Source of the DNA: Lepisosteus oculatus
Taxonomy: Eukaryota; Chordata; Actinopteri; Semionotiformes; Lepisosteidae
Reading direction: 5' to 3'
Length of the DNA: 64,000 bases
Assembly: GCF_040954835.1 (NCBI RefSeq)
Contig: NC_090707.1
Coordinates: 17,626,570 to 17,690,569, forward strand
The notes under the pieces were generated by a model. The model had not been told where the DNA came from, did not search any database, and saw only the letters and a list, made by a program, of their open reading frames with translations. Position numbers and translations under genes: made by a program. Shown here piece after piece: positions 1 to 64,000 of the stretch. Each line of letters opens with the position of its first letter. Within the stretch, counting starts at the first letter, position 1.

Positions 1-842
1 ATCTTGTCAACGGAGAAAGGGATCTGAAGTGCCTTCGCTCGCTGCTCATCTCGTGAGAGACGAGATTCTGCGCGGCTTTTTTGCTTGTCTTTGGTAAACG
101 GAGGCTTGCTATGCCCAGGGCTTGCTGGCAGCTCCTTCTTCTGTAATTTCGATGTGAGGCTGAGTGACTCACCTGCCTGTGGAGGAGTAGAAGGTGGTAC
201 TTGATAGCCGTCCATGTGATATGACATCGGGAACATCTCTGTGTGCTCGGATGGGGAACTCCCAGAATCGCTGTCCATCTCTTCAAGGTCAGAATCACTA
301 TACCCAAAGGATGTGTCACCATAAATAGAGGACTTCTGTGGTGAGGCCGCATTAGGACTTGAATCCATTGACAGCCCAGAGTCAGAATCATGAAATTCTG
401 TCAGTTTCTGAGGCTTGCTGTTCTCAAAACCATCCCCCGGTGTAAACTCGGTGATGTCCATTGGTTTTGGTGGTGGCCCACTCTGAACTTCAGCCTGTGG
501 GCTGTTTCCAGTGCTTGCTGGCGGAATGTTACCATGTGCTTTTGAGTTGAGTTGAAGGTCAGGATAGAACACATCACAGAAGTTATCAGTGTTGAAGGCT
601 GCGCCTAGATCTGAGACATTCAGTGTCATCTGGTTGAGGTTCTCCGGGGGAACAAGATTGGTATAGCAGTTTTCAAATGTGTTGAGAAATCCCGAAGGGC
701 ACAGAGTATCTGGTGTGTTTGCTCCAACTTCATCAGGGTTGGACATGTAGTAGTTGTAATTTGCATTCTGTAGCTCTGGAGGCTTGTTTGTGGTTGTGTA
801 GCCTGTCAAATCAGTCATGTCTTCGAGTGGCATACTAAGGCA
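1..842 (-). CDS. NFE2L2: NFE2L2 coding exon 5, partial (Neh6; bZIP beyond the edge)
   Basis: Last coding exon, 280 codons plus 2 bases visible (residues 196-475), opening CLSMPLEDM after a tandem acceptor TAGCAG. It contains the beta-TrCP degron DSGLS (349-353) inside [13 protein letters not shown], where human has DSDSGISLNTSP with its GSK3-primed serines. A second serine-rich site, DSDSGSSPS (385-393), lies where human has DSAPGS. Further on, [16 protein letters not shown] and [13 protein letters not shown] are near-identical to vertebrate Nrf2 upstream of the CNC domain. The window cuts the exon within the codon after SVDK. Confidence 0.97.
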
Positions 843-3800
843 CTGCTAGATAAAAAGAAAGAAAAAGAGTATGTTCACTTGTTTTATGCCCCTATCAACA
901 AATTAACATAACTGTGTTAGGAAGTAAGCAATACTGCTGATCGGAATTTAGTTGGGAATACGCCGGAAACATTTTGTGAACATCTCATTAAAAACAGATC
1001 AGCACAGAATATTTTTTTCACCTAAGATTTTTTTTAAAATACAGTTTATTGCTTCTTAAATAGTATCTTCCATTCCTTAAACAGAATTGCAAAATTCATT
1101 TCTTGCCTATGCTTGTCCTATTCATTTTTCTTTAACATTCCAATTTAAAGTGATTTTTAGGAGACAAATGATATTTGTCAAAAAGGAAATTTTATATTTG
1201 GAAAAGGTATTTCCAAATGCCATATCAATTTACAAAACAGCTTTAACAGTAGAAATAAAATTTTTAAAAATCAAGGTGACTTGTTTACAGAGATCACCGG
1301 TTCAGTATTATAGAGATGGCTCTCTCCACAGAAAAAAAAAGGAAATGAAATACTTTTATAGTTTGTGTCATTTGAGAACATACAGGTGATTACCAGAGTA
1401 GGAACCCCAATCAAACTGGGAATTTCCACAGTACAATGCTAGGTTTTGTATTTTTTATGCAATAAAGCCAAACAAAATGGTGTAAAAGGCAACAAAAATA
1501 CAATTTAATCAAAATGTGGTAATCGGCGATTTTTAAGAATTACTCAAATAAGAGAATTTCTTTATTTAGGTTTAATGCTTCACAGTCTTCTCTAGAGATA
1601 CTGCATCAGAGAGAACTCTCAATGTTTGTTCTGCACTTAAAAGAAAATTCTTTTGAGAGGATATATGACCCTTTACATCCCAGCTTTGCATCAAGGGATC
1701 TTAAGTATCCTTCTTTATATTTTAAAAGCCTGAACTGTGGTAATTTGATCGCAGAAGAATTACCGATGTGCATCTGCTGCCTGCATGTCCTTTTAATATC
1801 TATAGAACAAAGGTGTGCTTGTCTTCTGAATAGCTGGCTTATTCCACAGCAGAATTCTTTGGGTGTTTGTTACTTTTACAATCTCTTCCTATTGCAGAGT
1901 ATGAATTTGTCTATTGTAGTTACCTGCAGCTCTGGGATGGAAAGTAACTCCTGCCAAGCCTGCTCCAAGTCTTGAACAGTTTTCTGTTCAGGCAGTGAGG
2001 AGGTGAGTAGAGAAGGATGAACTTGCTGTGGCTGGTGGGGTGCCATTAAGACCTGGCTGCTCCCTGCCCCAAGTGTGACCGCAGAATCCAGTGACGGTGT
2101 TGAAGGCTGAAACGGGAGGAGTACACAGTATTAATCTACAAAAATACAAGAAAAGGCACACTTAAGGCAAGGAATTGACCGCACCTTCGGAAATAAAAAG
2201 AATGTAGTTATAACTGAGTTTTGATATGGTGCCGAGTGAAAAGCAGAGGTGCTCTTAATTATAAAAGGTGTCCTTTTACCTGAATGTCTTCTACCAAAGG
2301 GAATGTCTCTGCAAGCAACTGCATACATTCGTCAAATGACAACGACTCTCCTTCTTCTTCTGAGAAAAGGACATTCTGCAAATGAGATTGAAAAAGTCAG
2401 TACGCGGTCTTCTTTCTGTACAAGAACTGCACCATATATTTATATTTGCACATTTACTTTGTTCTGGAACATTCTGGGAAAAAAAAGGATAGGGTACTGA
2501 ATTTTAGTTTACATGGTAAGGTTTTCTTTACCCATAATTATATGAACAACAATAAAAAAGGCTTTGTCCGGCTTTCATACAGCTAATACAAAGGTTTTTT
2601 TACCCAGGCTTCAAAGGCATTAAAACAGTCCATGTGGACTGCTCAGCCACCTGTTTTATCCTAATTACAGTGGGTAATTCAGTTACCTAGTTACCATCCA
2701 AATTAACTCCAGCATGCAATGGGATGAGTCTTTCTATGCTGGCAGCAGTGACAGCTGGGTACCTGTGGGGCCTCTGTGGGTGCTGTTGTAGTTTCAGGTT
2801 GAGTGCTCTGTGGTGGCCGGGGAACAAACTCTCCTGTCTCTTCATCCAGTTGCAGCTGAGAGAGCAGGGCTTTCTCCTGCTCCTTCAAGAGCTGCTCTTG
2901 CTTCTCCTCTTCAAGCTTTCTCCGTTTCTCGAGCTCGTGCTCCTTCTGTCGGTGGCTGTAATCGAAAACTTCCCGGCCTGCGCCCAGGTCGATGTCCTGC
3001 CTCCAGAGGATGTCAATCAGGTCCATATCCTGCAAGAGAAAACAGGTTGGAAAAGAAAACTGTGGTTGAGCGTAGCACGTTCATGAGTACAGCATGAACG
3101 TGCTACGCCACAGAAACACAGCGATACCTCTTCCTACTAGTTGGCCGTGCTTTGACTTCACAACCCTGCAACGTTACTATGAGGTGACTGTAATGGAGAA
3201 GCACAATGAATAATAGATGCATTTCTCCTTTTTCCTTATGCCGGAAGCTCCAGTCATAGCTCACAGAAGCCAAACATTTATATGAGACAAAAGTCTAGCC
3301 GTTAAAAAAAAAGAAACAAAAAAACCACATACCGCTTAGGATTACCAGGAAACACAGGAAAAATTTGAAACCTACTTCCTTTTGTATCAATAACCATGAA
3401 AAGTTGTGGTTTAAGTACATTTAAAAGATTAGAATACTTACAAAAGCAGCATTTTGTAATTAACCTGTTCCTCCTTCAGGATTGTGGTGCATATCCTTTA
3501 GGCAGGCAATAACAAAATGTGTCGGTTTAAGGGACCAATCATTCCCATGAATAAGCTGCTGCCTGAAACCCTGAGGTACCCAGAGCTGGAGGGTAATCGT
3601 TTGCAAGGCTCGAATTTCACTCCAATCACACGGCAGCAGGGGCATGGCCAACCATAAGACAGCCCAGGAAGGAATGTTCTTTTCAGGTAGGAACACAAAC
3701 CAGCACTGTTTAACCAAACTCTGCTTTTGCAAGCATAACCTGCAATGTACATAATAGAAAATTATTTACTGTAGCTATCTGTGACTTTCCATTTCCCTGT

Positions 3801-6800
3801 TTTACTGTTTGTTGTTGTCTATTGTTACTATTTAATTTTTGCCTTCTGTTCTTAGATGATTATTATCTACAACTTATAACTGAATTCATTAAATATCAGA
3901 ACGGCTTCCACTTGGATGCTAGGCTAAGTATTTTTCTATAAACTGACCCCCATTCGAATATTTTAATTTAAAGGAGCTCTAGGCATCAGATTCACAACAG
4001 CAACAGATTAACGTCAGGAAGGGGACAATGATAACCAAATAGTTACGGGTAACCAAGAGGTTTTTAGAAAATCATCTATGTTTTACAGTAATATTCTGTA
4101 TTTGAAGTTTCATCATGTTGTATATAGGAATAAAGAGGATTAAATAAACATGTAAAAAATCTCACAAAGAGAGGTCAGCGAAAAATGTGGCAAATTCATA
4201 AACATGTAAGACATATAAAATTATTATGTACACATATGTAACTTGCACAACAAGCAGAGGTCTCCAGCTTTCATTTCCAGAATTAGGATTAGAGACCCCA
4301 GCTTTAGAAATATACTGCATAAAACTGTTCTGGGTTGGTCATTCATTATTTGTGCAAGGCATTATTTTTAAATCACAAGTAAAAACTATTTTAGAAAGCA
4401 AATACAAAGATAACAGATCATTTTAAACAAATTTTGATTCTGGGTGTCAAAAGAGCATATCAAAGTGTAAAGGTCAAATATGAGCTGTAAAATCAAAACA
4501 AAAAGGTGGGATTCTCTGATTAATAAAGCAATAATTGCAAAGGATTCTGACCAAAAATATATAAAAATATTTAGAAGAGAAAAAACGTCTGAATTGTTCT
4601 AAACGGCAGTTCAGATATGTTAATCTCCTGTGAGATTAAATAAATAACTGCTGCATGCATATAGCAACTTTCATTCAAAAACCTATTTTTTAAGATACCA
4701 AGGACCAGTCGCCCTACTGCCAAGCAGATCATGCAGGTAGGTTAGACTGTGTTTGTGCCTTACCAATTAACTTAAGGGGGGATTTAAAATAAATGCATAG
4801 CCTATGTCTCATAAGGCATTAACCCAGCTTTATTGTAAAATTACTCTATGTACAAATCTCCAGTTATTAGTACAGTATGAAAAGGGTAACTGATTTGTGA
4901 TAACACCTGCAAAATACTTCCTATATCAATCAGCTTGGGGTTTACTGTAGAAATTTAAAATATCATATGACAGAAAGATTCAGACACATTTGATTACCAA
5001 AAGCCTGTAGACAGACCATCATGAACCCCATAGGCTTTTCAACAAACATGCTAAGAGCTTTGTTGCTCTTAGAAGTTACAAGAGCCCTGAAAGGTTACAA
5101 AAACCCACACACTGAATCACAAGAAAGTTGCCAGACATGTGATTTTTTTCCCATCTGGGAAAAACAATAATTTTTTACTTCCTCAATTGAATGTCTTGCA
5201 TCACTTGACTGGAAATGGTCTCAGAGAAAGCCTTTTTTTAAAGAGGCAACAAACGAAGTAGACATTCATTCTTTTGATGAGAAACAGAGTATAGCAGAAA
5301 GACAACTGTTCAGCTTCCCAGAACTTCAGCACTGAAGGGCTTTGACAATTTTAGAAATGAAACAGCACTTAAGACAACTGTCACCATCAAGCTAAACTGT
5401 CATTTTCATGATACTAGAATAATCTGCAACTGTTGAATTAATTTACAGGAAGAGAAACAGGAAATACTTCACTGTGAATTTCAATTAAAATAAACCAGTT
5501 GTATCAGTTTTCAACAGAATTAGGATGTAAAGATTGTTCTGTCAAGGTTATTCAAGGGTATTAAAATCAAGTTATAATCCTAGTTAATCCAATCACAAAT
5601 TAAAAATCAATTAGAAAGTAATTATAATAGGGGGTTCCAAATATTTTGGCCAGTGAGTGCATACTGTAGCAAATCTGTACAATGCTAAAAAACCCAAATA
5701 TAGAACCAAATTTTACAGAACCAATCCAAAAACCGATAGTAATGGGCAAACCAAACGCTTTCATTCATTAGCTTGACAGTTTGAAACGAAATAACACCAA
5801 ATATGCTACCATGTTATATGGAAAGCCACAAAACTAACAGACCAAACATCTTCTTTGCATTACAGAGGCACTGTTTTGAATTATAAGGGACAGCACTTTA
5901 TGAAAACAAAGTTATTAGAACAATTAATTAGTTATGAGTTTTCAATAGCAGTAAACATAGGCGAAGGCAATTTTAAACAACAGTACTTGCTCTATAAACT
6001 AAATCAGTCCAAAAACAATATTGGTCTCGCTAAATATTGCCACTTCTTTATTACTAATTCAAATAATTCAAATACCAGTTCTGTCTTTGTCTGGAGCTGA
6101 GCTGAGAAAGCACATACATTTCAGTAGAAAAAAAGTAGGGGTTAACCCTTATATCCTGGTTATATTCCACTCTGGCCTTGATAAAGTTCTCTTTTTACCA
6201 AACTGGTCAAACACTCTCTTAATGTTGTTCCTGAACTGCTGTGAAGCACAGGATAGGGGCTTTGAAAAGTTCAGGTGTATGCTTGTACTAAGCGGTAGAT
6301 GCTGTGTCCTCTCCTATAAGATGAGCACTTTGAGATCCTTTGGATGAAATGTGCTAAATAAATTTAAGGAATTGATATTTTTAAAACAGCACACAGAAAA
6401 TGTGGATGCTAAGCAGTAAAAAAGAAGCAATCTGTGTTTATTCTGAATAAAAGCAAATCACTTTGCCATCTTCAAAGTTAAGCGCATTAACACAAAACGC
6501 TACAGGAGTGACTCAAGACTGTAATTGAGAGCTGAGCAATCACAGGTGCTGTCTGACAATGAGCAGGTGCTAAAGGTGGTCAGGAATGGAGCAGTTCTGA
6601 TTTCTGTGGGGAGTTCATTCCACTGAGGAGCAAGTGTGGAGAATTAATGGGCTTTGGAAGTAAGAGAATGGAGATGGGGATACGGAAAGTAGATCCTGTG
6701 GGATCAAAAGCACAATATACAGTAATATTGTGTAAATTATTAATTATTGTCTCTTATGTGCAACACCAAACAAGGTCCTATTCAAACAAATGGACATAAA

Positions 6801-9800
6801 AATCACTCGCAACAAGAGTCAGACTGTTAGCCCCATTGTTACAACAAGATATTTGTTCAAAACCTAGACCACTTAAATTCAGGTTCGACAGTCAAGTGGT
6901 GTCATGCAAAAACGACCATGCCTGAGGCGTCAACATGTTGGTGTGTCTGATCTGTTGTCAATATCCATAATGAAGATCATATTTTAAGTGGAAATTTTCA
7001 TTTTTAAAAAAAGTAAAATATTAGTCATAATACCACCGATACCACTACTACTACCGCTAATAATAACTTAACTTAAATTAGCTTTAAATATTTTAATATC
7101 AATATCATATTGAAAATTTGAAATCATATTGAAATAATACCTAGCAGAATATATAATACTACATTCAATAACTATCCTTGCTTAAATATTGTATTTACCT
7201 TAAATACTGAAGATATTATATGGTAAATATTATCATAGTAAATAGAAATTAATAAACCATAGAAATCTGAAAATTATTATAAAGTTTCAGTAGATGATTG
7301 TTTTGGACCTCTGTAAAAGCGGAGAGTTTTGTTGCTTTTTTTCTTTCACAGCCCTAACTCTTGAACTATGACAGATGTAAACGTACATAAATAAATCAAG
7401 GGACAAACTTTTTTTACAAAACTGCGTATAAAACGTGCAATGGAAGTATTGCTGCAGTGCTGCCTTTTATCACAACATCAGATATTCTTAACTTGTCTTT
7501 GTAATATGCATGAAGGTCAAAGTTAAACTCTTGGCTTATCATGTCCGCTTGCTACAGGCTCCTGGCTTATGATAAGAGCTTTAAAGTGAAAGCACAAGTT
7601 CTCAAATAAGTAGATATATTTCAAATTTTGCTTTTCATTCTTGCAGCACTTTATAAAATAGGAACTCACAAAACACACAATATTACATCACTGTGAATCA
7701 TGGACACCGCAATAATACACTGCTGGGCCTTCAAGTATTTTCTTGTTTCAAATTGGCATAAATTACTAGTTCTTGTACAACTATTATAGCTGGCTCAGCC
7801 AGCCATTTTCAAGCACATGACCTCAACAGTAAAAAACCGGCAGGTCTCTGTTGACACAAAACATGCTTTGCATCCTTTCGTCTAGCAATTTTTCACCATA
7901 CAGCTCAATATAGCTTTCTGAGAGAAAACAGGTTATGCTTTTTAACTTATTTATGTAATTTCATTTATGCCAGATAACTTATCATTTGGATAGAATTTAA
8001 AATGAGAGTTTTAACAATTCTTTAAATACACAAGTATTTATGAACACTCATGTCAGATAATCGATCATTAATGCACTACAAACAGTACAATAGCAAAAAA
8101 CTAGACACAGCTCATTGCCTCACCATGGTGATTACAACAAAGTATCTCTGGAAAGAGGCCTCAGGAAAGCTAATATGCTGCACAATACAACATTCTAAGT
8201 AGAAGTTATTTAATAAAAAGGATAAAACAGAATAAAGGCATCAAAGTTCAGGAAGGAAAAAAAGGTTCTCTGGCTAAACAGGACTTCTGACATATTTTCT
8301 TATGACTCCCACATTCAATTTGTTTTTCACAAATGGGTGTGTACTCTGGTACACAATGTGCCTGGAGTGCCGTGATGCAACTGAAACTTATCAGGTTATT
8401 TTAACCCTTTATTGGTGCACTACAGTCTCTAAAAACACGACAGAAAAAGATTACAGTAGATGCAGTTCACTGCCCTGCTGTGCAGAATACTATGCATACT
8501 GAGTACAATATATTTCTGTAATTTCTCCAACAGAACTGTGGTGCCGTGAAGCTTGCTTGTACAGTGGAAACAGTTATGAAAGACCAAATGTAGGAGAGTA
8601 AAATGAGAATTGTGGTTCATATTGGCTGCTTGGGTGAGTTTCCCACTGCACGAATGTCACCATAATCAATAAAAAAAACTTTTCAAGCTTATCTAGAGGA
8701 TTGTTAAAGGATGGCTTTGATTACACAAGAGCACTGTTTTTGCTGCACCACAGTCGCTCCTGTGAACCTTCCGAAACAAAGTATGCCCCACTGTTATCTG
8801 AAATAAATAAAATATTTGTATCAAAGCAATGCAGAAGATGTTGCCCTGGATATAAACTATCCAGCTGTGCCCAAGATGTTTTTGAGGCAGCCAGTTTGTC
8901 TCCAAACAGCACTCTCAGTAACTATGTGATCACTGATGGTGGACAGATGTGAGTCAAGACTGTGAGTGTTCACAAGCATGAGGAATAACAGATTCTGTAG
9001 GCAGGCTAGAAGGTAAAAAAAATGCAAAACATCTGTGTGGATGGGGAGCAGACAAGGGGACAGCAATCATTACAATCGGTAAAGGCTGCCATGTCTCCTC
9101 ACAAGTATCTTAAATTCTGAAGTTCATTAACAATTTAAAAATTAACACAGCATTAAAATATAAAGGTTACAGAGCCACCCATTCAGTCCATTTAAGTTGT
9201 CTGGTCTCTAGCAGTTCATTAAACCAAGGCCCTCATCCATCTTGAAAGAAGCAAAGGTATCAGCTTCAACAAGGCTGCATAGCTTGTTCCAGACACCTAC
9301 ATTTTTTGAAAAGGTTCCTCTTGTTCTCAATATTAAATGCACTTCCTTGTAGTTTCCAATTGTGTCATCTGGTTAATGTTTTACTGTTGACTCTGAAGAA
9401 TGCTTTTGAATACTAGAATCAGATCCCGTCATAGTCTTCTATCTTCCTAGATTCAGTTATTTTAGTCTGTTAGAGTGTGACATTCCTCTAAATCCAGAAA
9501 TATACCTGGTTGTTCTACTTTGGATTCATTATTGTGAACATATGAATAGTTAGGCTGATAAAATGGGTCCAATCAGTGTTACAGATACAGTTATATATAA
9601 AAATAAGATCTACAGACACTTTTATGAAGAAAATAGGCTTTAACCCCAGTTTGGAAAAGAACATTGAAAGGTTTAAAACTGCTCTGAGTCACAAACTTTG
9701 AATTTCTAATACAAAACATCCAAGAACAGCTACTCAGTAACCAGATCCTAATAAATGCAATATAGAGACTAAATATATTAGAGGTTGTTTGGTGTAGTTG

Positions 9801-12800: not shown

Positions 12801-14951
12801 ATACATTGTGGAACCTCCCTTCTCATTCTTTAAGTTCTGCAAAAACCTCAAGATGCAGAAATAAGCCAAGTACTCCACATTTTGGGTGAAATATCTTGAA
12901 ATGGATTTTGTGGCACACGTGAATGTACAGTTTATGCTTTCAAGCATCGTATTGTAGCGCTCTGGGGTTCACATGGGTATGCGCCCTCGCCGCTGCCGCC
13001 TAGGGTCACCCTCCCACCGCTGGGGACTCGAACCCGGGCCTCCGGCGTCACTCAACAGGGACCCAGCCAGCTGAGCTAAAGGAAAATCTCCCATCAGCCC
13101 AATGGCTGCAGTCCCTGCTATTCACAGGGAAGGGCGGTGACGTCACCACGCTGGTAAGCTAGCTCACGCAACCTCTAATGTCAGCCGTATGCGTTACAGT
13201 ATTATAGAAATACAGTTTATTTACTACATTAACATACAATAATTCACAAAAACTGCATTAATAAAATTTTTCAACACAGTTTGAATTCAAAACTTTAGGC
13301 CTCTTTGCATTCTGTGTTCCCAAAATAAACCATAAATTAATCAAGCATTCCACTTAGCAAACTTTATTAAGAGTTACGCCACCTGTTTACAACACCAGAA
13401 ATTCCACAGGATTTAATATAAAGGAGGAGATCCACTCTATCCACCACTGAAGTGTAGCCACTCAAATTCACATTACTGATTTGGCGTAAAGATAATGGAC
13501 AAACTACTAAATATTTTTTAGACGTAACCAATGAAATCCCAGCGTAAGAGGCTGCACGTGGAGTATGTAACCTTCCCTGAACTTCTGGCTTGTGGAAAAG
13601 CAAAATGAAGAGCCCAAGGGGAGCATGAACTCCATAGAGAGAGGCTACGTAAGGTGTTAAGGAAAACTGGTGTGGTCAGGCCCACACCAACACCAAGGCA
13701 AGAACAGGCTTTAAACCAGTCAACTGTGCACATGCAGACGTACCATGGCAACCACTGAGGCAAGGTTCATTGGCACAGATAAACCTAGTGTGAATAAAGG
13801 TTGTCTGAAGGCAAACTCAAATGCCACCAGACTAAGAAACCTGTTATTCTTGAGCTACTTCTTTTCCATTGGGTTCCTGCGCGGGCAACTTTTCACTCCA
13901 ACGCGAGTGTCAAGTTGAGCTCTTTTAAAAAGGAACATTATCCCCTTGCTGTCACGCCCGTTTCAACGCTTCCGTTCTCTAAAGGGGGATTTCACAATTA
14001 AACCGGCTGGGCTCAGACATTCTGCCAATTTTAACCATAGCTGTCAACAAATCTTCTCATAGGCGGGCCAGTTATTATTTGCTGAGATAAGATTAAGCTC
14101 TTTATGGTGCAGAATACATCATGGTAAAGCAAACAATAAATTCCTGGTAAGGGCTGCTTGCGATTGTGCAATCAGCTGCACAGAGCAAAGCCTAGCCTGT
14201 GATACCATCTTTTAGAGCGATCACACGCTATGGGGGGACTAGATGGTGTCAAGGGGGAACTTGACTTCCGACAAACCTGACTGTAGTGGGAGAGAAAGTG
14301 ATGAGTGAAGTTTTGTCTAAACTTTATGGCGTTTAGGCTTATACAAAGATGATTTGTTTCCACGCGTCTCTGATTTCTTTGAAAAACTGTCATAATTCCT
14401 CACACAAGGAGCGAGGGCTTTGGACCCAGTGGACGGACTTCAATGACTTCGCAGAATTTTATATGAAAGCGTGAGTGGCGCAGAATCTGATACAGAGCTC
14501 TTCTGAACGCCAACAATTCAGTGCAAACAGTAATTAATTTACACTTATTACAGAGTACAGTTCTAGAACAACATATTATTCCATAACTATGGAATTCCGT
14601 AAATTTCCTGTTGCGTCACTTGCGTATTAGCCAAATAGTAAACAATTCATATGACCTTATAAGATAATTGCGTTGTTTTAGTTATATGTTTGAAAAACAT
14701 AAAATATATACATGTACGCTTCATCAAATACAGTTTAAGAGATTTATTGTATTACATTAAGTTCTCAACCAATGAACTGAAGAAGAATGAATGATAGATA
14801 TTAAAACAGTTACTTCCCGGTAAGCCTGTGCTGTAGTTTATATAAGATTTCCAGGCAGGGCTATTCTGACGGACCATGATGATGATAACAGCAACGTACT
14901 GTAGCAACTTACCTGTTGACTCTGATGCAATTTTGGCAGCTCGATCTCCAT
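1..14951 (-). CDS. NFE2L2: NFE2L2 (Nrf2) gene, coding span; 3' part lies beyond the left edge
   Basis: Cap'n'collar bZIP transcription factor that heterodimerises with small MAF proteins on antioxidant response elements and is held down by KEAP1/CUL3 ubiquitination. Five coding exons join to 475 codons plus 2 bases: join(<1..842, 1924..2106, 2280..2375, 2763..3029, 14913..14951), complement. Visible parts are Neh2 (DLG at residues 27-29, ETGE at 77-80), Neh4 (exon 3), Neh5 (end of exon 4 into exon 5) and Neh6 (DSGLS at 349-353). The CNC-bZIP (Neh1) and Neh3 regions should lie just left of base 1, because the last readable residues ([11 protein letters not shown]) match the segment that precedes them in vertebrate Nrf2. 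All four introns are phase 0 with GT/AG borders. Six lysines lie between DLG and ETGE; human has seven. The N-terminus is the fish type, shorter than the human one. Identity is very secure; only the left end is incomplete. Confidence 0.97.
843..848 (-). other. Tandem NAGNAG splice acceptor at NFE2L2 exon 5
   Basis: On the minus strand the intron ends TTTTTATC-TAG-CAG before TGCCTT. Use of the second AG joins ELQ to CLSM, as in human. Use of the first AG would insert one extra Gln inside the Neh5/export motif. Both AGs are plain in the sequence; which one is used cannot be told. Confidence 0.75.
843..1923 (-). other. NFE2L2 intron 4
   Basis: 1.08 kb of AT-rich sequence between exons 4 and 5. 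I see no repeat, RNA gene or coding exon in it. The open frames at 1087-1389 and 1622-1975 are on the opposite strand, lack coding character, and the second runs into exon 4 antisense. Confidence 0.8.
1924..2106 (-). CDS. NFE2L2: NFE2L2 coding exon 4 (linker and Neh5)
   Basis: 61 codons, residues 135-195, between GTTTCAG and CAG|GTAACT. The first two thirds is low-complexity Ser/Pro/Gln-rich sequence with no clear counterpart in mammals. The end, [18 protein letters not shown], is the Neh5 transactivation motif and redox-sensitive export signal. Neh5 is interrupted by the intron exactly as in human, continuing with CL in exon 5. Confidence 0.95.
2280..2375 (-). CDS. NFE2L2: NFE2L2 coding exon 3 (Neh4)
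   Basis: 32 codons, residues 103-134, bounded by TTGCAG and CAG|GTAAAA. The core [19 protein letters not shown] is the Neh4 transactivation segment that binds CBP/p300 in mammals; human has FDDCMQLLAQTFPFVDDNE at this place. The exon is preceded by an acidic stretch (SEEEGES). Confidence 0.95.
2376..2762 (-). other. NFE2L2 intron 2
   Basis: 387 bp phase-0 intron between the Neh2 and Neh4 exons. Nothing recognisable beyond the splice signals. Confidence 0.85.
2763..3029 (-). CDS. NFE2L2: NFE2L2 coding exon 2 (Neh2, KEAP1-binding)
   Basis: 89 codons, residues 14-102, between acceptor TCTCTTGCAG and donor CAG|GTACCC. It opens [16 protein letters not shown], which holds the low-affinity DLG KEAP1 motif, and ends its conserved part [10 protein letters not shown], the high-affinity ETGE motif. 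A long charged helix lies between, with lysines at residues 42, 48, 51, 56, 62 and 66, the usual ubiquitin acceptors. Ser38 sits where human Nrf2 has the PKC site Ser40. The Met at residue 15 corresponds to the start used by the shorter human isoform. At 267 nt in phase 0-0, the exon could be skipped without breaking the frame. Confidence 0.97.
3060..3113. other. Perfect 16-bp inverted repeat (RNA hairpin) just upstream of NFE2L2 exon 2
   Basis: Arms 3070-3085 (GCGTAGCACGTTCATG) and 3093-3108 are exact reverse complements around a 7-nt loop. Five further pairs (3060-3064 with 3109-3113) follow a 5-nt bulge. In the NFE2L2 pre-mRNA it would lie about 40-80 nt before the exon 2 acceptor, the branch-point zone. 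It does not resemble a microRNA family I know. Confidence 0.85.
9165..9590 (-). mobile_element. Remnant of a CR1/L2-like LINE 3' region, antisense to the window
   Basis: Contains TATCAGCTTCAACAAGGCTG and AGCTTGTTCCAGACACCTAC, hallmarks of a widespread fish non-LTR element whose sense strand encodes the end of a reverse-transcriptase protein (…WNKLP…). The reading frame is destroyed. Related pieces occur at 37.6, 40.1, 41.1 and 48.1 kb. The class name is by recognition only. Confidence 0.6.
10459..10760 (+). mobile_element. V-SINE-like (HE1/DANA type) SINE, 3' truncated
   Basis: Starts with the tRNA-like head GGCAAGGTGGTGTAGTGGCT, then has the conserved core (TGTATGTTCTCCCCGTATTC, GTGGGTTTCCTCCAGGTGCT, CCTCCCACAGTCCAAACAC) shared by fish V-SINEs. 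The usual GGATGG tail is not seen and no target duplication was found. The open frames at 10536-10852 are shadows of it. Confidence 0.8.
12953..13198. mobile_element. 246-bp TGTA…TACA element with tRNA-like core and 4-bp duplication GTAT
   Basis: Ends are TGTAGCG and CGTTACA (imperfect inverted repeats). The flanks carry GTAT on both sides (12949-12952, 13199-13202). On the minus strand the interior reads AGCTCAGCTGGCTGGG…GGTTCGAGTCCCC, like tRNA A and B boxes. It is GC- and CpG-rich in an AT-rich intron and includes a full CRE palindrome TGACGTCA (13138-13145). A shorter relative lies at 34080-34192. It could be a MITE, a solo LTR (TG…CA ends) or a tRNA-derived SINE; I cannot decide. Confidence 0.6.
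14443..14453 (+). promoter_or_regulatory. Candidate antioxidant response element in NFE2L2 intron 1
   Basis: ATGACTTCGCA fits the core RTGACNNNGCR exactly and lies about 460 bp downstream of exon 1. Nrf2 is known to activate its own gene through such sites in mouse. The core is short, so several chance matches are expected in 64 kb; this one stands out only by position. Confidence 0.25.
14913..14951 (-). CDS. NFE2L2: NFE2L2 coding exon 1
   Basis: Thirteen codons reading [13 protein letters not shown], followed by a consensus donor (CAG|GTAAGT on the minus strand). The start codon at 14951-14949 has G at -3 and G at +4. The human exon 1 peptide likewise ends in a QQ just before [11 protein letters not shown]. 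The reading frame passes to exon 2 in phase 0. Confidence 0.93.
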
Positions 14952-18886: not shown

Positions 18887-19385
18887 GCCAGCAGCCATAT
18901 CACCCTGCCTCACAACTGGCAGCACACTGAAGCTAAGCAGGTGTGAGTCTGGTCAGTATGTGGATGGGAGACCTCCTGGGAAAAACTAAGGTTGCTGCTG
19001 AAAGAGGTGTTAGTGGGACCAGCAGGGGGTGCTCACCCTGCGGTCTATGTGGGTCCTAATGCCCCAGTATAGTGATGGGGACATTCTATTGTAAACAGGT
19101 GCTGTTCTTTGGATGAGGTGTCCTGACTCTCTGTGGTCATTAAAAATCACAGCATAGGGGGTGTAACCCTGGTGTCCTACTCAAATTCCCATTGGCAAAT
19201 TTCCCTACCTAATAATCCCTATCTATGAATTGGCTTCATTACTGGCTTCCTCCCCGCTAATAGCTAATAGCTGATGTGTGGTGAGCGTTCTGGCGCACTA
19301 TGGCTGCTGTCGCATCATCCTGTAAGTCCTGTAAAGTGCTTTGAGTGGAGTATCCAGAAAAGCGCTATATAAGTGTAAGCAATTA
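18887..19385 (+). mobile_element. 5S-rRNA-derived SINE (SINE3 type)
   Basis: 18887-19000 follows 5S rRNA closely: CCATATCACCCTGCC at the start, GAAGCTAAGCAGG (box A) and GTGGATGGGAGACC…CTGGGAA (box C region), then GCTGCTG. A long non-5S body follows, ending AAAGCGCTATATAAGTGTAA, the LINE-like 3' end usual for such SINEs. It is not a functional 5S gene: substitutions and the attached body rule that out. A second, headless copy is at 28510-28820. Confidence 0.85.
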
Positions 19386-23712: not shown

Positions 23713-26280
23713 TCCCCACTAAGGTGTTGTAGTAACATTCGAGATAGTTCTGCTTTGCACCATGTACCTCTTGGGTTAATCTCTGGATCATTACAACCTT
23801 CTAAAAATATAGCTGTTTTTGAAAGTAGATGTTTGTCCTCTTTCAGAGTCTTAAAATAATCAGTATTTTAAAGGTTTTATGTCTACTACAGAAATTTACT
23901 ACCTTCACTTATACTGTATATGTTTACTCATTTGATTAAATCCTTAAACATTTTACATTGGTACATATGGAGAGTAGTTTTTTAATTATTTAAAACTTTG
24001 CAAATGAGTAGCACCAGTAGTATTGGAGCACAGAAGGTAGTCTACTTTCTTATACTTGGTAAAAGTGTGATGCCAGTATATTGCTTCTGAAATTTAATCT
24101 GTTAGTTACTAGGTAATTATAATACCCTTTTATAATACAGTATTTTATACAGTAAATACTTTTGTCAAGACAAGACAGTACTGTATGTGAAGTCATTGAA
24201 CTATAAGGACATACGAAATGTAACAACCAAGAGGCATGTAGTTGACCCACTGAGTTTGCTTGCTAGTAGCTTTTTTTAAACAATCTATTTCGATTTATTC
24301 ATTTTAGCTTTTCACAAGAATACAAAAGTGAATGCAAAACACTTGTAAACAAAATGTGGATATATTCAGTGCAGGGGTCAACCTCGTTTCCCATTAGAAA
24401 AGTATGAAAAAAATAGAATTTAAATAACAAAAAATCAAGGGAAGGACAGAGATAAGAAGAAACAGTAGCAGAGACTGAGACCGGCATGTCAAGAAAGAAG
24501 CTTGAATACCTCAAAGCAAGATACGAATGGCTTCCAGGAGGAATAAGCTGTGTCTTGACTCACAAATTCTAAATTTAAACTTCTGCTAATGAAGCATCTG
24601 CATGAGATTCCTCCTCCAAAGGGCAAATAAGGGGTTTGTTTGTGTTTTTGGCTGCAATCAATTATACAGTATATGTTTTGCATCTAGGCCAGAGTGTTAC
24701 ACTGCAGCCTAGACAGATCAGTTCCTTTATCTTCAGCCCCAAACTGTTTGATAAATGGGGAGAGATCAAATATGATGTTAAGGAAATAAAATAAATGGAA
24801 GGGTTAAGGGAATACGAAAAATTGATTATGAATAGTTAAGAAAAGTCTTTTTTTCTGAAAAGTGAAATAAGTAAAAAGACCAGTAGTTTAAGTCTTGTTT
24901 AATAATGTTCTAATATGTGGTAAAGTTTGGAGCTAACTAGTAGCTATTTTGTTTGAGGATTGACGGATACCAGAAGATTTCCTTGCCTTTTCCAGACTCC
25001 AACAACCCCTTTTGTAAAAAAAATGTCTCACTGTTGATTCGAAAGAACCCAAACCGGTTGGCTCTTTTAATACCTTTCGGGATTTGGAATTCTTGTATGA
25101 AGTCCCCATAATCTTCAGGAATTTCCCAATTCCTAATTTGTTTTGGAAAAAACGAAGCAACAGAAAATTCCTTGTAGAAAATGTATATTGAACATTAGTG
25201 TGCCAGCTAGACAGTATTTCTTTGCAACTCCAATACGAATTAAATATAAGAACATAGGAATTTCCACACAATGTTGTATGGCATGTTACATTGTAAAATT
25301 TTGTATTCTAGGTTGCAATTTTGAGGGATTAGTAAATCACAAGTACGCCTGTTTAAAGAACTAGCATCTAGTGAGTCATAACCAAGAGCAGCATTTTAAC
25401 ATGCCACTTCAGAGTCATACACAACCCTTCTTGTATGATCCAAAGACGCATTTATTTTGCATATTTATAGTTACCATTGTAATTAACATTTTTGAAAATC
25501 CTTGTGAAAATCTCTGTGTCTTTAGTTCCATTACACTCTGTGGCTGACAGGGGCTTTTCTTGTTTTTCTGTAATATACCCAGACCTCTTGAACAGCATTC
25601 CAAAATAAATCAGGGACTTGAACAGATTGGGTGTTTTTATACCTCGCAGACTTAAAAAAAATGAAATGTATCAAATGTTTTTAGAAAAGCACGGTCTATC
25701 TCCCTTATTTGCTTTGTTTTCACATGTAGTTTTGTAATCTTAATTTTTATTATGATTTCCATGTTATGCTCTTTGAGATGACAGCTTTCATAGGTGATAT
25801 TATCATCATCATCACCGACATACAATTAAGGAAACGGTTAAGGCTTTTATTAATAACCATTCCAATTAAAATATTATGATTAGACTGTAGGTCTGGGGTG
25901 CTGGATTACAGTACATACCGTAAACAGTCATGCATTATTTACCATTTAAGTTTTAAATTCAGACTCAGTAGCTCAAAAATATTTAGCATAGTTATAAACT
26001 TACAATAAAAAACTGCAATAGTACTCAATGAAAAAATTGTTGAAAGCCAACGAGTACAGTCATAGTTTGAGGAAACAGATCTAGAAATTCTGTCAGCAGT
26101 GTGCAAGTAAAACGTATTGACATGCTGCAATTAGTCACGGTTTGAAAGATTTCTCCCTAATGATAGAGGCTTTTACCCCGCATTTTTACACGTACCTGTT
26201 AAGAAACTCACTTCGCCTCTACCTTAGCTTACAGTGCAGCCCTGTGTCTGCAATCACACTTTAAAAAAGTGCTTTTGCAA
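23713..26280. other. Intergenic stretch
   Basis: AT-rich DNA with no recognised gene, RNA or repeat. Open frames here are 60-112 codons long, on both strands, with no family resemblance. Confidence 0.6.
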
Positions 26281-26460
26281 AGCGCGTTCATGAGGACGCG
26301 TTCACGATTGGCAGCTCCACGTCGACATTCTTCCAGCTGCAGACTTCTGCACAGAGCAGGCAGACTCGGAGGTATACCGTTGTAAAGGCTGTGTAACAGT
26401 TCATGTTAAGACTTACGAAGGCCGACATTTCCAATATCCACAGATAAATTGTATACCGCC
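26281..26460 (+). promoter_or_regulatory. CpG-rich patch, candidate promoter of the mir-148 primary transcript
   Basis: About a dozen CpGs in 180 bp in an otherwise CpG-poor region. It has a direct repeat CGCGTTCA (26283-26290 and 26297-26304) and an inverted CCAAT box (ATTGG, 26307-26311). Downstream, CCAG|GTATGT at 26573/26574 is a good splice donor. It lies about 1.3 kb upstream of the microRNA on the same strand. The link is inference from position; it could equally serve another non-coding transcript. Confidence 0.4.
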
Positions 26461-27668
26461 TCTTTTGTTTGTCAGCATTCGACTGTTACTAGATCAGGTA
26501 TTTGCATGTATGTTCTCCTTCACTGCGTGTTTGACTACAGCTGGCGCCCATAGTGTTCACTTACTTCAGCCAGGTATGTATACTTCCTTTATGTTAAGTG
26601 TTCCTAAAAGTAAGCAGTTACATGGTACTGTATTTCATTTATTGGGTACGGACTTTACGGTTTTTTCTTTTTTCATTTATTTTAATACGAAGGTGATGGA
26701 CACTGGCATTCCTTCAACTTCTAACACAGTAAGTAATATTCCAAAATGTGCACGACAAATCTGCCTTAAAAGTGATCACATATTTTGCAAAGAAGCATAA
26801 ATCTATTAGACACTTTTATTGATCTTTTAAAGTAATTGTAATTTTCACAGCAGTGCAGTTTGCGTTATACCGTATGTGACAGACGGCTTGAAAGAAAAGT
26901 TCAGAACAAAATGCACTTGTTCTGGAAGCTGTGGATACAACTGAAAATGTGGATTTTGGATTTGTCTTGAGTACCCGACTCTATATTTGGAAAGTTTAGA
27001 CACGTCAGCTCTTCTACATATCGGCTCTCACAATTGTTAACTTCACAACCTTGAAGACAGACAAGGTGGAACAAGACTGTTCTATTGACTTAAGTCCATG
27101 GACAAAAAGTCTTTAAAGGATCTGAATAGACTTTCATTTTATTGTTCTGAACGTTTTTTGAGCAGTGTATTTTGAGTAAAAGCTATTTTATACGTGCAGT
27201 GTCTGCGTGTGTGCTGTAATAATAAAAACTAATAATTTCATTGAACACATTGAGACTTTTTCCAGGCTCTGAATGTGTTAAAATATGTGATGGAACAACA
27301 GAAGGTCTTTAAGTGACTGTGTCTTTTTAACTAGTAACCTGAGCCCATTTTCCAGCTCCAGATTACTTTTTAATTTATTTAGTCTTTATTGCAATGGAGT
27401 CTATATCTATAATTCTCCTCTACCTTCCAATTAGGCCTACATTTAGTACTTATCAATCAATTTTCAAATGCCTGGTATAAATATACGTACTAATTGCAAC
27501 CGCTAATTTATTCTATCGGTTTCCAGTAAATTTGGGGCTTTAGTAAGTGCTAACCAGAGATTATAACCTTTTCTGATGCCTTTTATTTTTCTGTCATTGC
27601 TTTAAAGGTGCTGCACTGGGGGACTTCTGAAAACCATTAACCTGGAAGAAAACGTGGCCGCACAGTGG

Positions 27669-27745
27669 CTTTCCAAGTAAAGTTCTGTAATACACTTAGA
27701 CTCTAATTGTTTGCAGTCAGTGCATTACAGAACTTTGTTTTGGGA
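27669..27745 (+). ncRNA. mir148: microRNA gene mir-148 (miR-148/152 family)
   Basis: The 3' arm at 27717-27738 begins TCAGTGCATTACAGAACTTT, with the family seed CAGUGCA, and as far as I recall equals zebrafish miR-148. The 5' arm (27679-27702, AAAGTTCTGTAATACACT…) pairs with it over 18 bp with one mismatch, around a loop of about 14-20 nt (CTAATTGTTTGC…). The lower stem CCAA/TTGG also pairs. The family represses targets such as DNMT1 and HLA-G in human by 3' UTR pairing. The gene is intergenic, 4.8 kb upstream of AGPS exon 1 and 12.7 kb upstream of NFE2L2 exon 1, in the direction of AGPS. It is not inside a COPZ gene, unlike mir-148b and mir-152. Confidence 0.94.
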
Positions 27746-28509: not shown

Positions 28510-28820
28510 TCGAGTAGAGCACTCACCCTGCAGTTTGTGTGGGTTCAAATGCCCCATATAGGGACGGGGACACTATACTGTAAAAAAGCTGCCGTCCTTT
28601 GGAGGAGAAGTAAAACTGAGGTCCTGACACTCAGTTTTCTTTTAAAATTTCAGGGCATTTCTCAGAAAGAGTTAGGGTGTTCCTGGTCAAGTGTCCCCCT
28701 GGACTTTACCAGTCATGTCCTCCTAATCCGATTTATGAATTGGCTTTATTACTCTGTTCTCCTATCCACTGATGGCTGATGTGTGGTGAGTGTACTATGA
28801 GCACTTTGGCTGCCTCCACA
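28510..28820 (+). mobile_element. 5S-derived SINE, body only (5' truncated)
   Basis: Shares GCACTCACCCTGCAGTTTGT, GTGGGTTCAAATGCCCCATA and TGATGTGTGGTGAGTGTACT with the body of the copy at 18887, but lacks the 5S-like head. 5' truncation is usual for such retroposons. Confidence 0.7.
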
Positions 28821-31507
28821 TCATTCAGATGGGTGGTACACATTGGTGGTGAAGGAGGGCAGTGAAATCTCTCTTCTTTGTGAATCAATTTTTTACTATC
28901 TGTAGAGTATTCCTGGTGTCTGGTTTAGTAATTTTGTTACTTAGAAACACTTTTATGCTCTTTGGCTTCTTCAGGTATTGATAGTTGCCCCTGTTCATAT
29001 GATAGCCTAAACTATAACATCACACGACCCTGTAAAGTGTTCACAAATGTTTGCATGATTAAGCATCTTCCCACTTTATGCTGTTTCTCACTTCCATACT
29101 CAGATGCAGTATATATTACCATTCCAGATACAAGTGCGATTATTTAGGTTAGTTGTTACACTGCTGCTTTCAGGACATTTATTGCTAGGGAGATCAGGGA
29201 GGCTAGTTTTCTCACTAGTTTCTGGAAAATAAAATGGCTAAATTGTTTGCAACGGTCATAAATTGGGTTTAGGTATTGTAAAGCTTTTTACAATCTAAAT
29301 CTAAAATAAAATATATTATTAGTATATGATGAAATCTGCTTTGGACCCCACCATTATTACTCAGCTTGTTTTGAAACTTTAATTACATATTACAATTTAC
29401 ACATATCAGTCAGAACTAATGGTTGTTTATCAAAATGTGTTTTATTATATTTCCAGAGCAGTAAAATGTGAAGAGATCATTTCCCGGAACATTTGTAATT
29501 CATTATTTCTGCACTAGAGTGCTGGATTTAAGAGGTCTTGTGCAGTATGAAAACAATGGAGCAATTAATTGTAAAGTTCTCTTGTTTTTCCAGCGTAACT
29601 GAAAAAAAAACAAAGCTGGATGTCTTGCTGAACAAACTCTGAACAACTTTTTAATTCTGTCTTGTATGAGACAGCATCTTAAACACGTTAATTCTCTTCA
29701 CTTTCTTGTATTCTGTTGCAAACACATTGTAAACTTTTAATCTGATAATAATGGTGGAAGACTGAAGGTGAAAAGTCATTGGTTATTTATAATCCTTTAA
29801 ATGACTGTGTAAGTGTGTTTTTGTTTTTAATTCTCTTGTCATGTAATCCAATTCATGTGCCGAAGGTCAGTTCTAAAAGAAATGTAATATTTTTTGTAAC
29901 AATAATGAATTAAAGCTTTGCAAGATTTCTGCCATTAACTAATAAATCTTCCAACAAATTTGTTTGCTTTCACAAACCAAGGTGTCTTTCACTTTTGATC
30001 TAAAGATCATCACTATCACACCATTATTTAATGGGTATCTGTACACACATTGGAACCATAGTACTTTATTATCCTGTATAAATCTTGGATAGAAGATTCA
30101 AAGTAAAGTACAGTACACTGTCTTCTCTGGGTGTTTATTACATTGAATTTACACTTATTTTTTATATACAGTATTATTAACTTAGTACAATTTACAGTCA
30201 CTTTGTATATGAACTGCCACACAACAATAATATTAACTGCAGCTGCCACATCACAGATTGTTCCATAAGGATGGAATACGTTTTAATTTAACATTGAGTA
30301 GTAATTAAGAAATAGCTAAGACATAAGACATATACAGTTGTTGTCAGGTTGGTTTTGACTAAAATAACATGCTATGTGGTTGACAATACATGGGATTTTG
30401 TTAGGCATGATTTTAAAGCAAAACTGCCAGTTTATCACAGGGTAGCTTTTACATATAATTAGTCTGAAAAACTGTCAGTTTCCACTACAGTGAGACTATG
30501 TAATAAAGGAGAGAATTGTTTTTTTGTCATTTAACCACAGTATATTCAACCTAAATGTGGGATATTTCAGAAATCATTTATTGTTTTTAACCAAATGCAT
30601 TGTGGGTGTGAAACGACTTTACAGTTAGGATAATTTAATTTTCCTATATAAAAAGAAAATGGTTCTAGTCTGACGGTTCTAGTCTCAATAGTCTGTTAAA
30701 AGTCCTTCTTTTAAAGTGGTGAAAAGAGTTATAAAATCCTTGAAAATAGTTTTTTATGTTTGCAAGTGAAAATCAAAGCATGCACATTTTACTTAAGGAA
30801 GCCAAAATATAAGTAGAATTACATCACTTTGTCAAAACAAGTGATTTTACTTTTCCCTAATTTGAACAAGAAAGAATTCATTTTTCAGGACAGGATTACA
30901 ATTGATATATATTAATTGATTCTCTGCACACAAAGAGGTGATGCATGGTAAAGGATTAGGTATTTTTGCTTATTAAATGTGGCAAGCATTCCATAAAGCA
31001 TCCAGTTATTCTGATCAATCATATGTTACATCTCTCAGTACACCATCTTATTTCTTTGAACATTTCTTTGGTATTGCCCATTGCAATAGTAAATGTTACA
31101 TTAGATTTTACCATCTGTCAGTAACATTCCTTTGTCTAAACAAGTCTGCAGCTTGAAATGTCCATGTACTGTAACCTTTTGTATAGGTAATACACCAAAA
31201 AGTGGAGACTCATATTTACTTATTATGTAAGTGTTATAAATATAGATATTCAATGTAATTTCAGGTTTCATTTCTTTTAAAATAGTCTTCATCTTTTGTT
31301 CAGTTATTTCACTTATTTGTCATCTATTATGTGGATTAGATTTTTATGCACCTTAAGAGTACGTTTTGCCACCCTCTAATCCAACAAAAGCAGAAAAAAG
31401 ATTTCTGGAAGCTTTATTGAAGAAGTGTCACCACACATAGTATTCTGAAGATCAGTAAAGAATGTGACACCAAGAGCCTGTTTCATGCATTAACTAACCA
31501 CTTTATT

Positions 31508-32542: not shown

Positions 32543-64000
<31,458 letters not shown>

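Follow-up and report, generated by a model that had tools for sequence, protein, structure and literature searches.

A predicted mir-148 gene between NFE2L2 and AGPS, very probably the HOXD-side member of the miR-148/152 family

The window (C12:17626570–17690569, the whole stretch of 64,000 nt that was analysed, in a genome assembly of 1.20 Gb) holds a real miR-148 microRNA gene, situated between NFE2L2 and AGPS. Very probably the gene is functional and is the HOXD-paralogon ohnologue of mir-148a (HOXA/NFE2L3), mir-152 (HOXB/NFE2L1, COPZ2) and mir-148b (HOXC/NFE2, COPZ1), its transcription, processing and targets being predicted ones. As a microRNA gene it is ordinary and well supported; its four-fold history is unusually clean. 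The genome has four Hox clusters and retains the family as a full set of four members, each of them still beside an NFE2-type gene and a Hox cluster.

The hairpin, its products and its neighbours

The Rfam model of mir-148 (RF00248; curated cut-off 53 bits) was matched in full, from model position 1 to 74, with E 1.3e-15, and the hairpin (Table 1) falls within the interval 27669..27745 where the earlier note had placed it. None of 200 shuffles was as stable as the 73-nt fold, and none of 200 as the 96-nt fold around it (z −5.6); a stable unbranched hairpin was obtained from both folds, from which the overhangs were also taken. The longest uninterrupted helix of the 96-nt fold was 17 bp, where a paired arm of 18 bp had been claimed. 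The 3' arm was opened by TCAGTGCATTACAGAACTTTG at 27717, as had been proposed, and this sequence was matched exactly once in the window; with up to 3 mismatches to the mature-like sequence, two window matches were obtained, the 3' arm and its own complementary 5' arm (100 shuffles: 0).

The 5' end of miR-148-3p at this position is a prediction from the mir-148 family, and the 5p strand was assigned from its pairing with the 3p strand. The two strands would form a duplex carrying 3' overhangs of 2 nt, one at either end, the cut sites being predicted as well. The family seed CAGTGCA (3p nt 2–8) was identical at all four mir-148 loci of the genome.

Table 1. Features of the window (positions from the first letter of the window)
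Feature	Positions	Strand	Evidence
NFE2L2 last exon, part	1..845	−	acceptor site; bZIP end lies beyond the window
NFE2L2 exon 4	1924..2106	−	splice signals
NFE2L2 exon 3	2280..2375	−	splice signals
NFE2L2 exon 2 (Neh2 domain)	2763..3029	−	splice signals; PDB match to NRF2 peptide 3wn7, E 1.2e-13
NFE2L2 predicted first coding exon, followed by gtaagt	14913..14951	−	lone pattern-filter candidate over 3100–46000; surrounding sequence CpG-rich
CpG-rich stretch, candidate promoter of the primary transcript	26051..26650		400-base stretches with CpG observed/expected ≥ 0.85
mir-148 family precursor hairpin	27672..27744	+	Rfam RF00248, 79.2 bits; fold z −6.54
Predicted 5p strand AAAGTTCTGTAATACACTTAGACT	27679..27702	+	pairing with the 3p strand, read by eye from the folds
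Predicted mature miR-148-3p TCAGTGCATTACAGAACTTTGT	27717..27738	+	22 letters identical to printed sequences of salmon, grass carp and sardine
Open reading frame with AGPS exon	59179..59553	+	PDB match to AGPS 4bby, E 7.1e-45 (joined to a piece from L015)

Both neighbours named in the earlier note were confirmed by PDB matches, NFE2L2 (NRF2) on the minus strand and AGPS on the plus strand. The bZIP of NFE2L2, which lies outside the window in piece L008, was matched to NRF2 7x5e (E 2.7e-36). The ends of NFE2L2 exons 2–4 were counted by hand from the splice signals; for exon 1, nothing was obtained with a stricter pattern search, and the candidate of Table 1 was given by a looser pattern. AGPS exons presumably also stand in the frames 45976–46404 and 48639–49034. 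The microRNA is located upstream of NFE2L2 and divergent from it, ca. 12.7 kb from the predicted start codon.

No tRNA genes were found in the window. Three of the mir-148 loci have a match resembling 5S rRNA nearby, at window positions 18887–19003, at 6770–6888 of L014 and at 8599–8716 of L009; these are perhaps 5S-derived short interspersed elements.

The CpG-rich stretch is situated ca. 1.0–1.6 kb upstream of the hairpin, in a window of CpG observed/expected 0.34 as a whole, and the enclosing segment (25950–26850) gave a single genome match, namely itself. A comparable CpG patch at a like distance was found for 121 of 1200 window positions (ca. 10% by chance), and the stretch is thus suggestive only of a promoter of the primary transcript. 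CpG-rich stretches were also found within 2.8 kb upstream of the hairpins on C1, C31 and C10, in generally CpG-rich regions. In the 30 nt downstream of the C12 hairpin a CNNC motif was not found; the other three loci have one, at some offset.

A working mir-148 might also be carried in a longer AGPS transcript and not in one of its own. The hairpin is indeed on the AGPS strand and upstream of AGPS, and with respect to the predicted NFE2L2 exon 1 it is antisense and ca. 12.7 kb upstream; against this, there is the separate CpG-rich stretch just upstream, with its single genome match, which would still leave room for an extended AGPS transcript. Such an origin of the transcript is considered unlikely, and it would be compatible with the assignment as a functional HOXD-side member of the family.

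Four mir-148 loci beside NFE2-type genes and Hox clusters

The genome search for mir-148 (64 of 166206 first-look candidates scored) gave four loci above the cut-off: C31, 87.3 bits; C1, 84.3 bits; C12, 79.2 bits; C10, 61.0 bits. Seven rows were obtained in all, and in the three below the cut-off, three of these four hairpins were matched on their opposite strand. For the mature strand, the prediction is TCAGTGCATTACAGAACTTTGT (C12), TCAGTGCATAACAGAACTTTGG (C31), TCAGTGCATCACAGAACTTTGT (C1) and TCAGTGCACTACAGAACTTGGT (C10), with the middles TTAC, TAAC, TCAC and CTAC, respectively. The middle TCAC is taken by us to be the human 148b type and CTAC the 148a type; judged by the predicted mature strand, C10 is of the mir-148a type and C12 is the fourth member.

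Searching the genome with the NFE2L2 bZIP gave six matches out of 13 candidates, one of which adjoins each of the four mir-148 loci; the distance from bZIP exon to hairpin is 27.7 kb (C12), 35.4 kb (C1), 24.1 kb (C31) and 12.5 kb (C10), and the two are on opposite strands in every case. The remaining two matches (C5, C2) were weak (47% over 57 residues) and are presumably BACH-like.

With a HOX4-like exon of C12 as query, 95 homeobox matches were obtained (150 of 176 candidates scored). The best four (100, 86, 86 and 78%) were on C12, C31, C1 and C10, each inside a dense run of matches; these runs are read as Hox clusters. Smaller homeobox groups elsewhere, e.g., three near 5.7 Mb of C5 (57–64%) and two at 78.5 Mb of C1 (54–60%), are taken to be ParaHox or other homeobox genes. 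The letter D of the C12 cluster is our assumption from known homeodomain sequences and the linkage to NFE2L2 and AGPS, and the letters A, B and C of the other three loci are likewise assumed assignments.

Between the last match of the Hox cluster and the hairpin, ca. 194 kb (C12), 270 kb (C31), 140 kb (C1) and 223 kb (C10) were counted, the hairpins lying beyond the 3' end of the clusters. The order Hox, NFE2-type gene, mir-148 was found at four of four loci, with mir-148 on the Hox strand. The one-to-one quartet of NFE2-family genes and mir-148 with a HOXD-paralogon member, as put forward earlier, is thus borne out in this one genome, in order and orientation at all four mir-148 loci, each with its NFE2-type gene and Hox cluster.

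The HOXD-side cluster (C12:17390843–17459810) comprises 10 homeobox matches, one of which sits between the presumed hoxd3 and hoxd1 and is perhaps hoxd2 (gene names presumed). A mir-10 locus was found inside the clusters on C12, C31 and C1, and two further loci of the mir-10 family (C5, C26) outside clusters; the exons flanking mir-10 on C12 are taken to be hoxd8-like and hoxd4-like.

On C1 and C31 the hairpin is followed by COPZ exons on its own strand, and the COPZ query had its seven genome matches with E 0.001 or better at these two places, with none elsewhere. This agrees with the human hosts, for mir-148b lies in COPZ1 and mir-152 in COPZ2 (PMC12688097), both microRNAs being intronic in human (PMC3675212). 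Because on neither C1 nor C31 was a COPZ exon located on the upstream side of the hairpin, we infer, and do not observe, that these hairpins are intronic in COPZ. At the C12 mir-148 locus a COPZ gene was not found, and COPZ stands beside two of the four loci alone. A relic of COPZ in the window was considered and rejected: with three COPZ2-like exon peptides as queries, no match in the window was better than E 0.58, and the genome matches were on C1 and C31 only.

Age and conservation of the four hairpins

Segments of 3 kb around each of the four hairpins were compared pairwise (six pairs). In all six, the similarity centred on the hairpins covered 58–90 nt and ended at the hairpin edges. Pairwise identities over ca. 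74 nt were: C12 to mir-152, 79%, to mir-148b, 77%, and to mir-148a, 78%; mir-152 to mir-148b, 86% (the closest pair); mir-148a to mir-152 and mir-148b, 71 and 69%. The C12 hairpin is therefore the closest relative of mir-148a among the other three, and the hairpin length (74 nt) by itself cannot settle the order of duplications.

This closeness to mir-148a, together with predicted mature strands of C12 and C10 that differ at two positions only, would be in keeping with a mir-148a copy of recent date, transposed or segmental, that came to lie beside NFE2L2 by chance; a recent transposed copy had been named in the earlier note as an outcome against its own proposal. The C12 hairpin, however, is no nearer to mir-148a than to mir-152 or mir-148b; similarity is confined to the hairpin; and the position and orientation with respect to its NFE2-type gene and Hox cluster are as at the other three loci. 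For four chance landings less than 40 kb from NFE2-type genes, a probability of roughly 5e-15 was estimated by hand. A recent copy was rejected on these grounds and is regarded as extremely improbable.

Other pieces with E < 0.001 were a match between one hairpin and the complement of another, a 345-nt stretch near the C12 (window about 28530–28859) and C31 hairpins, and a 74-nt piece (76%) common to the mir-152 (C31) and mir-148b (C1) loci, at the position of the first COPZ exon found. The 345-nt stretch was 75% identical; since its two copies are oppositely oriented and stand apart from the hairpin, it is probably a dispersed repeat.

When the four hairpins were aligned, pairing was kept in 96.2% of cells, and both sides had changed in 5 of the 27 pairs; slid controls of the same alignment gave 33–43% pairing and 0–1 such pairs. 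The observed values were reached by shuffles in 2/500 (covariation score), 11/500 (double-change pairs) and 119/500 (further pair types), with the fold of the C1 sequence, one of the four aligned, as the structure, a choice that favours the result. With four sequences, the pairing kept speaks only modestly for a hairpin that is old and under constraint.

The C12 locus could in principle be a relic of a true old duplicate, with the hairpin kept and its expression or processing gone; that neither a COPZ host nor a downstream CNNC motif was found would be in line with such decay. On the other hand, the stem is intact with its unbroken helix, double changes across the four copies keep the pairing, and a microRNA identical to the predicted mature strand was counted by RNA-seq in salmon (PMC7686242). 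A relic is accordingly thought very improbable, and a functional gene is preferred.

Fish miR-148 and comparison with known loci

The 22 letters of the predicted mature strand are identical to sardine spi-miR-148 (a prediction made with dre-miR-148 as the reference; PMC7320087), to ssa-miR-148a-3p in an RNA-seq table of Atlantic salmon (PMC7686242) and to a grass carp miR-148 primer (PMC4698583); a mimic used in a teleost study is the same sequence minus one nt (PMC5482802), and a zebrafish table lists dre-miR-148 for liver (PMC4647824). The product of the C12 locus is therefore not new, and the novelty implied earlier is reduced, the mature sequence having already been printed for fish miR-148. 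Zebrafish dre-miR-148 has, we assume, exactly the letters of the C12 prediction.

A mir-148 placed between NFE2L2 and AGPS was not found in the main texts among the literature matches listed. MirGeneDB 2.1 takes in gar and names genes by paralogon, according to PMC8728216, and the C12 locus may well be catalogued there; the retention of microRNAs on four subgenomes is described in PMC8789304, in the main text of which 'mir-148' does not occur.

Fish "miR-148a" with the C12 sequence may be the HOXD member and not the orthologue of mammalian miR-148a. On balance, we lean to the view that the fish miR-148/miR-148a with the middle TTAC derives from the HOXD/NFE2L2 locus, non-orthologous to mammalian miR-148a, and that mir-148 outlived its COPZ host at two of four loci by retaining an upstream CpG promoter. 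If so, functional comparisons of fish and mammals under the name miR-148a set ohnologues ca. 500 million years old side by side. The C12 locus offers a clear test of which fish miR-148 is orthologous to which mammalian one, and it may exemplify how an intronic microRNA persists once its host gene is gone.

For the preferred assignment as a functional HOXD-side gene, the ancestral unit would have been a Hox cluster, an NFE2-type gene and a divergently oriented mir-148, with a COPZ host present or not, and the two genome duplications of early vertebrates would have multiplied it. At C12, COPZ would have gone or never been there, and the microRNA would be intergenic between NFE2L2 and AGPS. By the scheme established for the microRNA class (primary transcript, Drosha, Dicer, Argonaute), a plus-strand primary transcript would be made by RNA polymerase II, perhaps from the CpG-rich stretch at ca. 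26.05–26.65 kb; the hairpin would be cut by Drosha/DGCR8 and then by Dicer, the 3p strand would enter Argonaute, and messages with family seed sites would be repressed, in part redundantly with the other three copies. To our knowledge, human has only three genes of the miR-148/152 family, and for this reason loss of the HOXD-side mir-148 on the mammalian lineage is plausible.

Compared with known systems, the mir-148b/COPZ1 and mir-152/COPZ2 loci have the same order and relative orientation of Hox, NFE2-type gene and microRNA as C12; they differ in that mir-148b and mir-152 of this genome are directly upstream of COPZ exons, with no COPZ found at C12. Human mir-148a is near NFE2L3, and mir-148a of this genome (C10) has the family, the seed and the divergence from the NFE2-type gene in common with the C12 locus; its middle is CTAC in place of TTAC, and the hairpins are 78% identical. 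The miR-148 of sardine, salmon and grass carp, in the sequences printed for them, has the same mature strand, and its orthology with the C12 locus is suggested by this sequence identity.
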